This document shows positions 2,320 through 35,388 of a stretch of 41,433 nucleotides of DNA, piece by piece. Position 1 is the stretch's first letter; each line of letters begins with the position of its first letter. The position numbers and the translations under genes are program-made. The DNA comes from a virus: the IMG/VR virus record IMGVR_UViG_3300032160_000018, positions 1 through 41,433 of that record; one strand, 5' to 3'. The notes below the pieces were generated by a model that had not been told where the DNA came from, did no database searches, and was given only the letters and a program-made list of their open reading frames with translations.

Positions 2320-4086
2320 ATGGCGGGGCCTTTTTTCGTTCGCAAGACAGGCAGCAATTCCAATAACGGGACTTCTCCCTCAACTGCGTGGCTCACTCTC
2401 ACCTATGCCCTGACCGCGGCGGGCGGCAACCCCGCAGGCGGCTCGATCATCTACGTCGGCGGTGGGGTCTACCGCGAGACCGTCGCCCCGACCGTCAGCG
2501 GGGCCTCCCTCTCGACCACCTACGACGGGACCAATGGCCTGTCCCTCGCCACCATCCTGGCGACCGGCCTGCTCACGGTCACCTCGATCACCGGTCTAGT
2601 CGCTCCACCAGCGGGCTACTACAACACCTTCCAACTCGTCACCTCCGCGGGCAACGTGCAGGGTACTTACACGGGACTGTCGGCGTCCGGTGGGATCGGC
2701 GGCAACCCGGCGCTCACCGGGATCAAGTTCCACGACAACGCCACAGTCACCAGCGCCGCCACGGTCGCCTCGTCTGCGGTCTGCATCATCGGCTCACCCA
2801 CCTGGGTCATCGGGGACACTGACGGGGCGCAGACCGGGGACGCTGGAGAGGTCACGCTCAGCAACTTCACGACGAACGACACAACCGCACCCAACTCGAC
2901 TCTGCTTGCCTTCGGCACACAGAGTTACCTCAGCTTCGCAAAGATGACGATGGTCCAAGGGGCGACAACCGCCCACACCTTCTCGACCAACGCCGCGGGG
3001 GGGATGATCGGATGCCTGTTCGTTGAGTGCACCTTCAACAGCCTCCTGGGCGTGTCCACGTCTGGCGGGTTCTTGTCCCTCACGTCGCCCACTACCGGGC
3101 TCGCGATGAACATCGTGTTCGATAGGTGCATCCACGGGAGTACTGGGTTCTCTATCGCGCTCGCTACCACGGCCAGCGGCTCGGGTGACTACGACGCTCT
3201 CATCTTGATTCGCAACATCGGCTTGCTTCTGGGCAATGTTTCGGTAACCGCCACGGGTACGAGCACCTACAAGGGCGGCGGTGTCCGTATAGTCAACAGT
3301 TCGTTTATCAGCAAGGCCAACACCGCTGTGACGGCGGCAACAGCAACGTATCTCTCGACCGCCATTCCTTGCGAAGTCCATAACTCCCTGTTGATCGCCG
3401 GAGCGAGCGGGACCGCCCTGAACGCAGCAACCTCGGGCCAACTGGTCGAGTCTTACAACAACATCTACGCCGGGACGCCGCGCACCAACGTCAGTGCAGG
3501 CACCGGCTCTCAGACCAATGCCTACGCGCCGCTCCTTGAACTCGGCCAGTCCCGCCAGTGGGCCGGAGTCTTCCGTCAGTTCATGGCCCCTGATGGCCCG
3601 CTCTCCCCGCTGCTCGGCTTCGGCTCGGACGGCTCGGGGAGCGACCCGACCGTCGACTGGATGAACCGAGTGCGTCCCTCGGGGGGGCAGTCCACAAAGA
3701 GTGCGGTGGGCTATGCCGAGCTGCACGACTTCCAGATCGAGGACACGAGCGTCTACAACGACAGCCCCGCCTCGCCGAAGATCGTCGGCCCGGGGGATGC
3801 AGAGTTCGACGTGCCCGTTGATGCGGTTGCCACGACGTTCTCGATCTACGTCTACGCGGGAAGCGGGTATGGCGGGTCGAACATGCCGACCGTCACGCTG
3901 CTCGCGTCGGGGGAGTTGGGGGTGACCGCGCAGACTCTGACCTATTCGGCGTCGCTCGGGACTTGGCAGCAGCTCACGTTCTCCCCGATCACGCCCACGG
4001 CGGCGGGGTTCGTCAAGATCAGAGTGACCAGTTTCGACACTTCGGCAACGGCACCCACGAACTTCGATACCTTCGCGGCAACCTAA
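2320..4086 (+). CDS. Tail spike / receptor-binding protein with right-handed beta-helix
   Basis: 588 aa. The N-terminus (FVRKTGSNSNNGTSPSTAW, about residues 6-24) matches the start of pectate-lyase-like beta-helix proteins, whose signature is a YVxxTGSDSNDGTSPxTAF motif. A long Gly/Thr/Ser/Asn-rich middle with repeated short strands follows, as expected for stacked helix rungs. The C-terminal 110 residues (from about 475) read as a jelly-roll or carbohydrate-binding module (ATTFSIYVYAGSGYG, then GTWQQLTFSPIT). The likely role is host surface glycan recognition or cleavage at the virion tip. No catalytic residues can be assigned by eye. The mid-gene DNA has more synonymous AT-ending codons than its neighbours, consistent with exchange of receptor-binding genes between phages. 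Confidence 0.7.
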   Translation: MAGPFFVRKTGSNSNNGTSPSTAWLTLTYALTAAGGNPAGGSIIYVGGGVYRETVAPTVSGASLSTTYDGTNGLSLATILATGLLTVTSITGLVAPPAGYYNTFQLVTSAGNVQGTYTGLSASGGIGGNPALTGIKFHDNATVTSAATVASSAVCIIGSPTWVIGDTDGAQTGDAGEVTLSNFTTNDTTAPNSTLLAFGTQSYLSFAKMTMVQGATTAHTFSTNAAGGMIGCLFVECTFNSLLGVSTSGGFLSLTSPTTGLAMNIVFDRCIHGSTGFSIALATTASGSGDYDALILIRNIGLLLGNVSVTATGTSTYKGGGVRIVNSSFISKANTAVTAATATYLSTAIPCEVHNSLLIAGASGTALNAATSGQLVESYNNIYAGTPRTNVSAGTGSQTNAYAPLLELGQSRQWAGVFRQFMAPDGPLSPLLGFGSDGSGSDPTVDWMNRVRPSGGQSTKSAVGYAELHDFQIEDTSVYNDSPASPKIVGPGDAEFDVPVDAVATTFSIYVYAGSGYGGSNMPTVTLLASGELGVTAQTLTYSASLGTWQQLTFSPITPTAAGFVKIRVTSFDTSATAPTNFDTFAAT

Positions 4087-5111: not shown

Positions 5112-5426
5112 GTGTCACTGCCTGGACCTGTGTACGTGGGAACCGGCATCACGACCACCGCGACCTTCACGGTTCCCGGTGCACCCGGGACTCCTGGGGT
5201 TCTGACCGACCCGACTGTCGTGACCCTCTCGTTCCGGGTCGCGGGCGGAACCCCGACGGTGTGGACCTACGGAGGGGCCGGGTCGATCGTCAAGGTCTCG
5301 ACCGGCGTCTATTCGGCCGAGCTACTCGCCAACGCCCTGGGCGAGTGGGACGTGAAATGGGAGGGCACCTCGGCCTGTGCGGCGGTCAACGTGGCGTCGT
5401 TCAGCGCGGTGGAGCCTCCGTTCTGA
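5112..5426 (+). CDS. Small Ig-like beta-sandwich protein
   Basis: 104 aa. GTG start with an excellent AGGAGG site at 5102-5107. The pattern VGTGITTTATFTVPG, TVVTLSFRVAGG, VWTYGGAG, STGVYSAELLA, GEWDVKWEGT matches a short beta-sandwich family common in actinophage tail modules, where lines such as VTLTVRDPDG, TGVYHADL and GxWxYRWxGT recur. The function of that family is not established; a virion decoration or tail tip role is inferred from its neighbours. Confidence 0.55.
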   Translation: MSLPGPVYVGTGITTTATFTVPGAPGTPGVLTDPTVVTLSFRVAGGTPTVWTYGGAGSIVKVSTGVYSAELLANALGEWDVKWEGTSACAAVNVASFSAVEPPF

Positions 5427-5929
5427 TGAGCGACGACACCAACGTGGCTGCGCACGCGGCCAAGCAGACGCACTCCTATGTCGTCCACTTCCCCCCCCAC
5501 CCGGCTCGCACCAGCGACCCGCACTACGTGGACTTCAACCACTACCACCAGAAGTTCGGCCCTGACGCGCGGTGCGCCTTTGCTATCCATGGGGACCTGC
5601 CAGGAGACGCGGCTCCGGGGCGCCAGACAACGCCCCCTCACCGACTCATCGGTCCATCCGAGGTCCGCGTGGGTTGCGACACCGAACACCCGATGGAGCT
5701 CCACCACAGCCACGTCGAGTTCTCACTGCAGAACGGCGTGGATCTCGCGCTATTGGAAAAGGACTACCCAGGGATCTCGGACCCGACGCAGGTGGGTGCG
5801 TGGGTGGAGAGCGCCGCGAACTTCACCTGGTACTGCAGCGAACATCATCGGGGGTACGGCGGCGCACACTCTGCTGCCGCGTCGGACTTTGAGGCCGAGA
5901 AATACGTACAGGGTCTAATCAGCAAGTAG
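5426..5929 (+). CDS. HNH-fold nuclease-like protein, 3' end supplied by an inserted element
   Basis: 167 aa. ATG overlaps the previous stop (TGATG). The C-terminal half has an HNH/beta-beta-alpha-metal layout: CDTEHPMELHHSHVEF (His-His-x-His), then SAANFTWYCSEHHRG with Asn and a Cys-x-x-His-His pair. The final residues AEKYVQGLISK are encoded with codons (GTA, CTA) unlike the neighbours. They are repeated, recoded, as AEQYVKGLISKN followed by a stop at 6329-6366, beyond a leftward endonuclease gene. I infer that the endonuclease gene landed near the 3' end of this gene and brought a replacement end with it. The protein may be a nuclease or a structural HNH-fold relative. Confidence 0.6.
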   Translation: MSDDTNVAAHAAKQTHSYVVHFPPHPARTSDPHYVDFNHYHQKFGPDARCAFAIHGDLPGDAAPGRQTTPPHRLIGPSEVRVGCDTEHPMELHHSHVEFSLQNGVDLALLEKDYPGISDPTQVGAWVESAANFTWYCSEHHRGYGGAHSAAASDFEAEKYVQGLISK

Positions 5930-6298
5930 GTACTGACGGGCCCGGTCGCCGCGGATGAGCATCCATTCGAGCGACGAGTTGCAAGAGGCGCAGAGCAACC
6001 CGCGGATCTTCTTCGTGGCATGGTCGTGATCGACGTACAGGCGGCGTTTCTTCGGGGGCCTGCGGCAAATGGCACACCGCCCCTTCTGTCGCTTGAGCAG
6101 CGCGTCGTACTCGCCAATCGTGAGTCCATAGCGGCCCGCCAAGGCGGTGGCTCGACGCATCTCCGGCGTGACCGAGCCTCGTGACCGCTCGGCTTTGCAT
6201 TTCTTGCACTCTCCGACTGTCCACCCACGTTCGGTCGCGCGCTTGTCAGCGACCATTTCGTCAGGGGGCTTCTCCTGGCGGCATCGGTAGCACCTCAC
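5915..6298 (-). CDS. Recombination endonuclease VII-like HNH protein, probable mobile gene
   Basis: 127 aa from a GTG start, chosen because the family usually begins just before the first Cys pair (CYRCRQEKP). Residues about 20-45 include a second pair (CKKC). The core follows: RYGLTIGEYDALLKRQKGRC, CAICRRPP, the active-site strand YVDHDHATKKIRG and LLCASCNSSLEWM. This is the endonuclease VII (Zn-bound, DHDH) signature. It lies antisense to all its neighbours, and its stop overlaps the stop of the preceding rightward gene by 15 bases. Free-standing nucleases of this type often behave as homing genes. The flanking duplicated gene end (5892-5929 and 6326-6366) supports insertion. Longer starts are open upstream but would run through the orphaned gene end. 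Confidence 0.8.
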   Translation of the reverse strand: MRCYRCRQEKPPDEMVADKRATERGWTVGECKKCKAERSRGSVTPEMRRATALAGRYGLTIGEYDALLKRQKGRCAICRRPPKKRRLYVDHDHATKKIRGLLCASCNSSLEWMLIRGDRARQYLLAD

Positions 6299-6325
6299 TC
6301 CGCCGATATTAGTGGATAGCAGCGG

Positions 6326-6366
6326 AGCGCCGAGCAGTACGTGAAGGGTCTCATCTCCAAGAACTG
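6326..6366 (+). pseudogene. Orphaned 3' end of the HNH-fold gene at 5426
   Basis: The forward frame reads SAEQYVKGLISKN then TGA, preceded by an in-frame TAG at 6317 and by no start codon. It matches the last residues of the gene at 5426-5929 (AEKYVQGLISK) but with synonymous and a few non-synonymous changes. It therefore appears to be the original end of that gene, displaced by the inserted endonuclease VII gene. Just after it, AAAGGA at 6367-6372 serves the holin-like gene. Confidence 0.65.
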
Positions 6367-6377
6367 AAAGGAACCCA

Positions 6378-6635
6378 ATGGCAACTCCCATCCCCACCCC
6401 ACCCGTCGTACCGTCGGTCTGGACGCCCTCGACCGTCATCGCCTACGCCTCGGCCCTGGCCGTGTTCGTGCTCGGCCTGCTGACCTTCGCCGGGGTCGTC
6501 GTGCCATCCAACGTGAGCGGCGAGGTGAGCACGGTGACCGCAGTTCTCGAGTCGCTGGCTGGTGTCGTGACCGCGCTGGTGACGACCCTGTCCCATCACT
6601 CGGTCGTGAAGGCGCTCGCTCAGTACGACCGCTGA
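6378..6635 (+). CDS. Holin-like two-helix membrane protein
   Basis: 85 aa with an AAAGGA site upstream. A Pro-rich start is followed by a strong hydrophobic helix (residues about 19-42, AYASALAVFVLGLLTFAGVV) and a second amphipathic/hydrophobic helix (about 52-72, STVTAVLESLAGVVTALVTT), then a short polar tail. The size and two-helix layout fit small holins that permeabilise the membrane for endolysin release. It is the last gene of the rightward late block, before a strong terminator. The endolysin is encoded at 39426, upstream in the circular order. Other membrane proteins at 40320, 40709 and 40921 are competing holin candidates. Confidence 0.55.
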   Translation: MATPIPTPPVVPSVWTPSTVIAYASALAVFVLGLLTFAGVVVPSNVSGEVSTVTAVLESLAGVVTALVTTLSHHSVVKALAQYDR

Positions 6636-6703: not shown

Positions 6704-7603
6704 TCAGAGGCGATCACCGGGGGAGAGGCTGCGGTGCGCCGCCCGGGCCCGCTCGTCGGCCACCGAGGCCCCGTAGCGGGCGAGCATCTCCCGGCTCTTC
6801 CAGCCGGCGAGCCGCATCAGATCGCCCTCCTGGCCGCCCTCAGCGAGCCACACGTGGGCGAAGGTGTGCCGGAACTGGTGCCAGTGGAGCTGGCGGATCC
6901 CGGCCTGTCGGCAGCGCCGGCGCAGGATCTGGGTGAGCCCCGACGGCGTCATTGCACCGCCTCGGCCCTTCCCCTTGACGGTGCCCAGCCAGAACGCCGG
7001 GAGCGACGCCCGGGGGTGGACAGAGCGCACCCGGGAGTAGCGGTCGAGCGCGGCGAGGGTCCGGTCGCCGATCGGGACAGAGCGTGTGCGTGCTCCTTTG
7101 CCGAGGACGGTGACCACTTGGAGGCTCCACTCGACGTCGTCTGACTGCATGGCGGCGACCTCGGAGAGCCGGCACCCGGTGTCCAAGAAGAGGCGCACCA
7201 GCGCAGCATCACGCCGCTGCTCGAACTCCTTGCCGGCGCAGACTTTCAAGAGCGCCTGGAGCTCCTCTTCGAGGACCACCGGGACCGGCGACTCCGGCAC
7301 CCCGGGTGGGTGCATCTTCGCCATGGGGTTGACGGGGACTTCCTCTTCGTCGACCAGCCACCCGAAGAGCTGCTGAATGCTCCGGTACCGGACAGCAGCG
7401 GTGGCCGGCTTGCTCCGCTCGAGCTGGTCGGCGATGAACGCCTCGACGTCGGCGCCTGTGATCTCGGCGGCGTCGCGCACTCCCACGAAGGCGCTGAGCA
7501 TCCGGCCCGAGAGCAGGTAGCTGTAGATGGTGTTGGGCGAGCGGTTGCGCGCCTTGAGGCTGCGCTCCCAGGAGACGAGAAGGTCGTCGAGCTTCACCGG
7601 CAC
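6704..7603 (-). CDS. int: Tyrosine integrase
   Basis: About 299 aa from GTG 7603; a TTG start at 7627 would add eight residues, and neither has a convincing ribosome site. The N-terminal SAM-like core-binding domain ([20 protein letters not shown]) is followed by the catalytic domain. The active-site residues are visible: Arg in [10 protein letters not shown], Lys in [13 protein letters not shown], His-x-x-Arg in [10 protein letters not shown], Trp in [10 protein letters not shown] (in the His/Trp position) and the nucleophile Tyr in LARYGA. It catalyses site-specific integration and excision. A tRNA-derived attP candidate lies about 90 bases upstream of the start. It is transcribed leftward with the lysogeny genes and ends against the terminator at 6671. 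Confidence 0.95.
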
Positions 7604-7681
7604 CAATCGCTTTTCGCAATGGTGCAATTCGAACTATGCACGGTGTGCTTCTATCGCCGTGCTGCGACAGACCGGGTAGGT

Positions 7682-13764: not shown

Positions 13765-14316
13765 GTGCCGTCCGGTAGCTGCTCGATCGCAGGATGCGAG
13801 CGACCTGCTTACTGCCGTGGGTGGTGTCGCCCCCATTACTACCGATGGGCCCGAAGCGGCAGTCCCGAGTTCACCGGCGAGCGCGCAGTACCTCGGAATC
13901 GCCACACCCCCGAGAGCTTCTGGACACGGGTCGACCGTCGAGGCCCAGCGGACTGCTGGGAGTGGTCGGGCCACCTCACCAACGGCTATGGCCGTGTCAG
14001 GTACCAGGGCCGCATGGTGCTGGCTCATCGGCTGGCTTTCGAGCTCGTGGTCGGGTCGATCCCCGAAGGGCTCACGCTCGACCACCTTTGTCGAAACCGG
14101 GCCTGCTGCAACCCGGTGCATCTTGAGCCCGTCACCTCGGCTGAGAACACGCGTCGTGGAGATGGAAGCAACCGAGGCATCCGGAAACGGGAGCAGACGC
14201 ATTGCATCCGCGGGCACGAGTTCACGCCCGAGAACACCTACCGCCGGCGCAACGGAACTCGACTCTGTCGGGCCTGCAGTCAGATCGCGGACCGGAAGAG
14301 GCGCCGCACGCCGTAA
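13765..14316 (+). CDS. HNH homing endonuclease (HNH_3 type)
   Basis: 183 aa. GTG 13765 follows GGGAGG. An N-terminal metal-binding element (CSIAGCERPAYCRGWCRPHY) precedes the HNH_3 core: DCWEWSGHLTNGYGRVRYQG, LAHRLAFELVVG, LTLDHLCRNRACCNPVHLEP, then SAENTRRG. The C-terminus carries another Cys/His cluster (THCIRGHEF, LCRACSQIADRKRR), probably DNA-binding. Such proteins usually spread as free-standing homing genes. It sits between the transglycosylase gene and a small helical gene without overlap, unlike the coupled neighbours, which supports insertion. Confidence 0.85.
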   Translation: MPSGSCSIAGCERPAYCRGWCRPHYYRWARSGSPEFTGERAVPRNRHTPESFWTRVDRRGPADCWEWSGHLTNGYGRVRYQGRMVLAHRLAFELVVGSIPEGLTLDHLCRNRACCNPVHLEPVTSAENTRRGDGSNRGIRKREQTHCIRGHEFTPENTYRRRNGTRLCRACSQIADRKRRRTP

Positions 14317-34396: not shown

Positions 34397-34586
34397 CGAC
34401 TCCCTCGACATCGACATCGACGCGACGGCCGACATCGGCCCGCTGGTCGACGTGATCCTCACCCGGATCGAGAACAACCCCCAGCTGCTCAACCGGCTCT
34501 GGCAACTGCTTGAGCCGCTGGTCGACGCCCGCGCCAACCAGGTCGCCGCCAACGTCGCCCGCTCGGGCACCGGCACCCGCTCCTAA
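34389..34586 (+). CDS. Small acidic protein after the tape measure
   Basis: 65 aa from TTG 34389, overlapping the tape measure stop by eight bases. An acidic beginning (MADDSLDIDIDATADIGPLV) is followed by a helix (DVILTRIENNPQLLNRLWQL) and an Ala/Asn-rich end. No family is recognised. Coupling suggests a tail assembly accessory. Confidence 0.5.
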   Translation: MADDSLDIDIDATADIGPLVDVILTRIENNPQLLNRLWQLLEPLVDARANQVAANVARSGTGTRS

Positions 34587-34605
34587 TCCCCCGGAGGTCC
34601 ACCCG

Positions 34606-35388
34606 ATGCGATCCGCTCTGCTCGACGCGCCCGAAGTCAAGTTCTGGCGCTGCCCGTCCTGCGGGGCGACCGAGCGCCAGGTGGCCGGCATCACCATCGC
34701 CCACCGCTGCCCGGCGCATGAGTTCCTCACCGTGCCCTTGGCGTGGGTAAAGAACCCGACCGACGTTCCCGACGTTGTGCACCGGGTGATCGAGCGCGAG
34801 GACTACATCGGCGACTCGGGTGGTCAGCGGGTCATGGCTGTGCGCCTCGAGCGGGCCGACGGCTCCTACGACACCAACGTCTACGCCCCGACCGCCGAGC
34901 ACTCGCTTGCCCAAGCATGGGGTGGCCCCGGGGCCTGGTCGGCCTCAGCGATCTTCGCCTACGCGGTCTACTCGTCGCTGACCAAGGCCATGAACTGGTC
35001 GAGCGACTCGCTGAAGGTCGCCCTCTACAACAACACCGGCACGCCGGACAAGACGGTCACCACCGCGGTCCTGACCGAGTACAACGGCTCGGGCTCCCAG
35101 TGGGTGACCGCCAACGAGGTGTCCCAGTCCGGCCAGTGGGCGGCCGGTGGCGTGGCGCTGGCGGGGGTGACGGTCACCCAGTCGACCAACGTCATCACCT
35201 TCAACGGGTCCAACACATCGTCGGGGTCGGCGGCCACGTTGTCCAACGTCTACGGCTGCCTCGTCTACGACACGACGGTGTCGAGCCAGGGGCTGTGCTT
35301 CAACTACCTCGGCGGTGCCAACGCGGTGTCCGGCGGCACGTTCACCGTGGTGTGGAACAGCTCGGGGATCGCCACCTTCACCACCTGA
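34606..35388 (+). CDS. Zinc-ribbon plus virion-type beta-domain protein (paralogue of 1182-2069)
   Basis: 260 aa; GGAGG at 34592-34596 fixes the start, although the frame is open further upstream. N-terminal part MRSALLDAPEVKFWRCPSCG, HRCPAHEF with a four-Cys/His ribbon, then VHRVIEREDYIGD. The C-terminal domain (about 120-260) has SDSLKVALYNNTG, GQWAAGGVALAGVTV, VYGCLVYDTT and GTFTVVWNSSGIATF. Both halves align in order with the 1182 product, indicating duplication of the whole gene within this phage. The two genes lie at opposite ends of the tail-tip/lysis block in circular order. The likely role is structural. Confidence 0.65.
   Translation: MRSALLDAPEVKFWRCPSCGATERQVAGITIAHRCPAHEFLTVPLAWVKNPTDVPDVVHRVIEREDYIGDSGGQRVMAVRLERADGSYDTNVYAPTAEHSLAQAWGGPGAWSASAIFAYAVYSSLTKAMNWSSDSLKVALYNNTGTPDKTVTTAVLTEYNGSGSQWVTANEVSQSGQWAAGGVALAGVTVTQSTNVITFNGSNTSSGSAATLSNVYGCLVYDTTVSSQGLCFNYLGGANAVSGGTFTVVWNSSGIATFTT

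Follow-up and report, generated by a model that had tools for sequence, protein, structure and literature searches.

Why does a small phage gene have its 3′ end twice, once in place and once, lacking a start codon, on the far side of a nuclease gene? The question is raised by the window, the whole 41,433-nt stretch of viral DNA analysed here (IMG/VR record IMGVR_UViG_3300032160_000018). Starting at the left, the relevant features are:

5426..5929, plus strand: the target gene, encoding a conserved actinophage protein with an HNH-like motif; full length, with a functional 3′ end
5894..5929, plus strand: the working 3′ end of that gene, AEKYVQGLISK-stop; probably incoming, with AAA, GTA, CTA and TAG, codons that this phage seldom uses
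5915..6298, minus strand: an Endonuclease VII-motif nuclease gene (127 aa, GTG start at 6298), convergent with the target gene
6299..6328, no strand assigned: the spacer from the Endonuclease VII (EndoVII) start to the stranded end, the right-hand junction
6329..6367, plus strand: the stranded, start-less 3′ end, AEQYVKGLISKN-stop, with a stop codon just upstream; probably native
6378..6635, plus strand: the next gene, an ORF for a small hydrophobic holin-like protein, the native downstream neighbour

The target gene terminates as ..SDFEAEKYVQGLISK-TAG, while the stranded copy reads GCC GAG CAG TAC GTG AAG GGT CTC ATC TCC AAG AAC TGA. The two ends are identical at 9 of 11 residues and 26 of 33 nucleotides. 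Their BLOSUM score of 45 exceeds both the 25 of the best other position in the window and the maximum of 31 reached across 30 shuffled windows. The start-less second copy reported on the forward strand by the first-pass annotation is therefore real, its reported coordinates being off by 1–3 nt. When matches need not end at a stop codon, scores of 45 are not exceptional in DNA rich in GC; what carries the case is the reading register, together with the stop codons and the conservation of this end in the family.

Relatives of the target protein are encoded in 313 IMG/VR stretches (alignment search), and terminate ..FEAEKYVxxLI... In 14 diverse members the C-terminal D154, E156, A157, Y160, V161, L164 and I165 are invariant, placing the last residues among the most conserved of the family. 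Distant relatives occur in 12 bacterial genome contigs, mostly actinobacterial (alignment query). A query with the single protein gave no match in bacterial genome contigs, and the gene has none in cultured phages. The HNH-fold label originally attached to the protein is provisional and derives from the motif (H93-H94-S-H.. N132 ..C137..H140-H141-R), there being no significant match in Pfam, PHROGs, PDB sequences or a fold search that used a modest model (pLDDT 70).

A further candidate HNH-like nuclease, with a cysteine/histidine-rich start, is located at 13765-14316 of the window. The genes at 1182-2069 and 34510-35388 are apparent paralogues sharing the start LLDAPV..W.CPSC. In other loci an N-terminal module, M-[SN]-W-[SN]-[EK]-R-Y-A, recurs at the starts of many small phage genes that are otherwise unlike one another (L005 at 4884 and 5354, L021 at 5420, L026 at 5567, L181 at 3408 and 4051, L189 at 3471 and 3902, L202 at 4356 and L206 at 4601).

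The leftward gene at 5915-6298 is confirmed as Endonuclease VII-like. It matches PF02945 (Endonuclease_7; E = 1.9e-17, residues 55-113 of 127) and the PHROG endonuclease VII (E = 3e-28), and aligns with T4 EndoVII (1e7d) with retention of the catalytic DHDH, R and N and the CxxC pairs. These are arranged in the order CxxC - DHDH - R - CxxC - N (GRCAICRR..YVDHDHATKKIRGLLCASCN), with the EndoVII motif in the C-terminal half of the protein. The gene is atypical in its codons compared with the genes of the window. It overlaps the target gene by 15 nt, including both stop codons, as had been noted from the sequence. The ORFs of the insert include no integrase or recombinase between the two ends, and no sigma-70-type promoter was found in the spacer (6299..6328). 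Rfam gave no match, to a group I intron or to any other family, in the window or in two further loci described below, L129 and L022. The right junction of the window (6322-6335) contains a near-repeat, GCGGAGC/GCCGAGC, a possible trace of right-side joining.

Uninterrupted relatives of the target gene were sought as a check on the earlier annotation, and hundreds exist. The 3′ end is uninterrupted in nearly all family members scanned, and none carries both ends, an arrangement that would count against the proposed insertion. In L148 the gene ends AEQYVRGLISK-stop and a membrane-protein gene starts 72 nt later. In layout this corresponds to the empty site that had been predicted. No near-identical empty allele of the window gene is known, the closest relative being 72% at the amino acid level, and thus the assignment of donor and recipient rests on codon usage. 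The holin-like gene at 6378..6635 has no relatives in viral contigs. A degenerate DNA search of 2.9 million viral contigs for an AEQYVKGLI empty allele returned only an unrelated exonuclease-like gene at two near-identical loci. It thus yielded no empty allele, but the rarity of the peptide pattern is a further sign that the resemblance of the two ends exceeds chance.

Among the other family loci scanned, an EndoVII gene directly follows the target-family gene only in L022. This is a different EndoVII at the same place, convergent with a 23-nt overlap, and there is no convincing stranded end. The phage record of L022 (L255) has a second EndoVII at 1429-2001, on the same strand as, and directly after, a structural-looking gene. 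In L005 (and L006) a 13-codon ORF, MNWSERYVRGLIK-stop, lies ~255 nt past a target-family gene (5139-5182 in L005). Its end, YVRGLIK, is identical to the native tail of L026, and the ORF may therefore represent a tail displaced without an intervening nuclease.

Which of the two ends in the window is the older? With 19 window genes as the reference for codon likelihood, the working end is improbable under phage codon usage (P = 0.0014), whereas the stranded end falls within the usual range (P = 0.61). Probably, therefore, the native end is the stranded copy and the working copy arrived later. Part of this signal, CTA and TAG, is imposed by the stop codon and C-terminus of the antisense EndoVII gene, and codons are no less atypical in the middle of the target gene than at its end, so that codon usage in the window serves as supporting evidence only.

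A scan for peptides repeated on either side of EndoVII genes turned up a second case, L129 (IMGVR_UViG_3300032893_002134), with these features in reverse-complement coordinates:

1172-2782: terminase large-subunit gene, named from its sequence, ending GDNFRGDGFARDIIKYLRV-stop
3167-2760, minus strand: EndoVII gene, convergent with the terminase gene and overlapping it by 23 nt
3210-3269: start-less stranded end, the same 19 residues plus stop

The working and stranded ends are identical at 19 of 19 residues, yet 15 codons differ, all silently. Upstream of the overlap 11 of 12 codons are changed, and antisense coding does not therefore force the changes. Recoding imposed by the overlap, which accounts for CTA and TAG in the window, was accordingly rejected for L129, where the changes lie mostly outside it. 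Two syntenic empty relatives (L237 and L238) carry the terminase gene, one gene and GroEL, with neither an EndoVII gene nor a stranded end between terminase and GroEL. Their terminase tails are strongly different from that of L129 (e.g. EKFKEGGFHFQITKYLKI), which makes the full residue identity beside silent codon changes in L129 notable. The EndoVII gene has 41.7% GC compared with 52.6% for the locus, marking it as foreign. The working end is the most codon-atypical stretch of the terminase gene, though the stranded end too departs somewhat from typical usage (P = 0.002). At the right junction (3194-3218, reverse complement) the 9-nt direct repeat GGGGATAAC occurs twice, possibly a trace of right-side joining. 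GroEL-like genes lie beside the terminase large-subunit gene in all three of these related phages.

The scan of 108 EndoVII loci gave stranded ends in two. A strong start-less displaced copy after unrelated sequence occurs only in the window and L129 among 4391 gene tails, a rate that is biased because the tails are those of all fetched loci, gathered around these genes; both displaced tails lie across an EndoVII gene. Matches in L158 and L220 are tail-protein-like paralogues and were judged ordinary. The nucleases of the window, L022 and L129 occupy separate regions of a tree built from 108 EndoVII sequences, many of whose nodes are poorly supported. EndoVII is present in 67 of 297 actinobacterial genomes, and the actinobacterial EndoVII loci (L256-L286) contain no stranded ends standing out from the null. 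The EndoVII genes of cultured phages are mostly on the same strand as their neighbours, and peptide-repeat or tail scans of these regions gave no stranded ends. In Microbacterium phage Wyvern (L239, 1252-2450) an EndoVII gene similar to that of the window at the DNA level converges on a membrane-protein gene, overlapping it by 4 nt, and no stranded end was seen.

From its sequence, the window unit is rather more probably than otherwise a free-standing EndoVII-type homing element that carries a replacement 3′ end for the target gene. This reading, proposed in outline in the first-pass annotation, gains from three observations: almost all relatives have an uninterrupted version of the gene at whose 3′ end the EndoVII gene is placed; codon usage suggests that the working end came in and that the stranded end is native; and the same layout occurs independently at the terminase gene of L129. 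The different EndoVII at the same position on the target family in L022 also fits it, as does the existence of homing endonucleases with the EndoVII motif. On co-infection by a carrier and an empty relative, the nuclease would cut the gene of the relative in the conserved stretch encoding the last residues. In the target protein gene the likely cut would lie at the left edge of the stranded end, near E-A-E, and by the same reasoning that in L129 is predicted near G-D-N of the terminase. Repair of the break from the carrier would copy in the differently spelled gene end together with the overlapping convergent nuclease gene. The recipient's own end would thereby be displaced beyond the nuclease, start-less and separated from the left half of the recognition site; this product is what is seen. 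The target protein would remain whole, and with no intact native site left in either copy, further cutting should cease. Homing nucleases often tolerate silent changes, and the 7 mismatches in 33 nt of the window may thus not protect. The scarcity of stranded ends among EndoVII loci, the want of a convincing one in L022 and the atypical codons of the stranded end in L129 also weigh against the homing reading.

The main rival is illegitimate or mosaic recombination, in which a block holding the gene end of a diverged relative and an EndoVII gene (a passenger or phage resolvase) was joined in and the old end left behind. The silent differences would then be normal divergence under purifying selection, with neither homing nor protection. 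The same-strand EndoVII genes of cultured phages, lacking stranded ends, fit such an origin, as do the 9-nt direct repeat in L129, which is compatible with end-joining, and the ORF of L005, if that is a tail displaced with no nuclease. However, the same layout is found in two unrelated phages, with two target genes and two divergent EndoVIIs, and what recurs is specific: convergent genes, an overlap of 15–23 nt and a stranded end lying no more than ~50 nt from where the nuclease gene starts. Nor would divergence readily give no amino acid change in 19 residues beside 15 silent codons in a tail that is poorly conserved in relatives. We consider recombination less likely than homing, though a serious competitor.

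Two other origins were rejected. By analogy with prophages e14 and 21, which rebuild the 3′ end of icd, the stranded end might be an attachment-site copy made by the tyrosine integrase encoded at 6704-7627, ~340 bp downstream of it. Yet the matching gene is the phage's own, with few relatives in bacterial genomes and none shown as a host target gene; the nuclease is the sole content of the inserted stretch; and the insert lacks flanking perfect core repeats of any useful length, the two ends sharing at most short identical runs. Integration is thus the least probable of the origins considered. It is only marginally less implausible that the stranded end is the leftover of a mostly deleted tandem copy of the target gene, or an assembly artefact. 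That the window is an uncultured metagenomic contig speaks for such an origin, but chimeric assembly needs a long shared junction sequence and none exists. Tandem copies are absent from the target-family loci examined, and the recurrence of the layout in L129 argues against both.

The homing reading can be extended, tentatively and at slightly less than even confidence, to a class of natural 'home-and-rescue' elements among phage EndoVIIs. The mobile unit would join a nuclease gene to the 3′ end of a conserved target, silently re-spelled, with antisense overlap keeping the two linked, and at every invasion the end of the target would be swapped and the old one stranded. L129, as a second case, makes one oddity a testable pattern, and each stranded end indicates a probable cut site, so that activity is directly testable for two nucleases. 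If the proposal is true, it would account for the ability of free-standing phage nucleases to attack conserved, essential coding sequence while sparing both the gene and their own genome, and recent homing could be searched for by its footprint of stranded gene ends. No description of stranded, re-spelled gene ends beside phage nucleases was found in the open-access literature searched.

Replacement of a gene end is not a wholly new strategy, since the WHO elements of Torulaspora and Lachancea yeasts do so at FBA1 (Coughlan et al. 2020, PMC7282813). Their proposed route is a cut in the conserved 3′ part of the target and repair from a carrier with a resistant version, which strands the old end (PMC7282813). 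By analogy, the present layout suggests a natural phage version of this 'cut, copy and rescue' homing. In common with the window and L129, WHO nuclease genes lie downstream of a conserved, full-length target with a replaced and diverged 3′ end, and the former 3′ end is stranded beyond the nuclease gene. The WHO nuclease is an HO/intein-zinc finger protein, whereas that of the window is a PF02945 endonuclease VII. WHO genes occur in clusters of several, and the FBA1 fragments are ~400 bp compared with ~36–60 bp for the phage ends. Unlike WHO genes, the window nuclease gene is convergent with and overlaps the target end, and the phage cases are known from sequence alone.

Homing endonucleases with the EndoVII motif (DHHRN) are established, the example being F-CphI (PMC6083498). 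This shares with the window nuclease the EndoVII catalytic motif, its C-terminal placement (in the endonuclease clade) and a free-standing phage gene (PMC6083498). F-CphI adjoins an intron-containing psbA, the intron splitting its site (collaborative homing), whereas in the window an intron is absent and it is the target end that occurs twice. Intronless homing by T4 seg and mob genes (PMC2988022) likewise involves a free-standing phage nuclease near its presumed target. There the cut site is usually away from the nuclease gene, and a stranded copy of the target end is not described in the literature searched. In intronless homing resistance is assumed to come from sequence differences in the donor allele (PMC12724721). 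Engineered home-and-rescue gene drives (e.g. PMC7968924) also pair a nuclease with a functional target copy whose sequence is re-spelled, but unlike the window these are synthetic CRISPR systems in insects. If the present reading is true, phages have independently evolved a WHO-like replacement of gene ends that such drives imitate.
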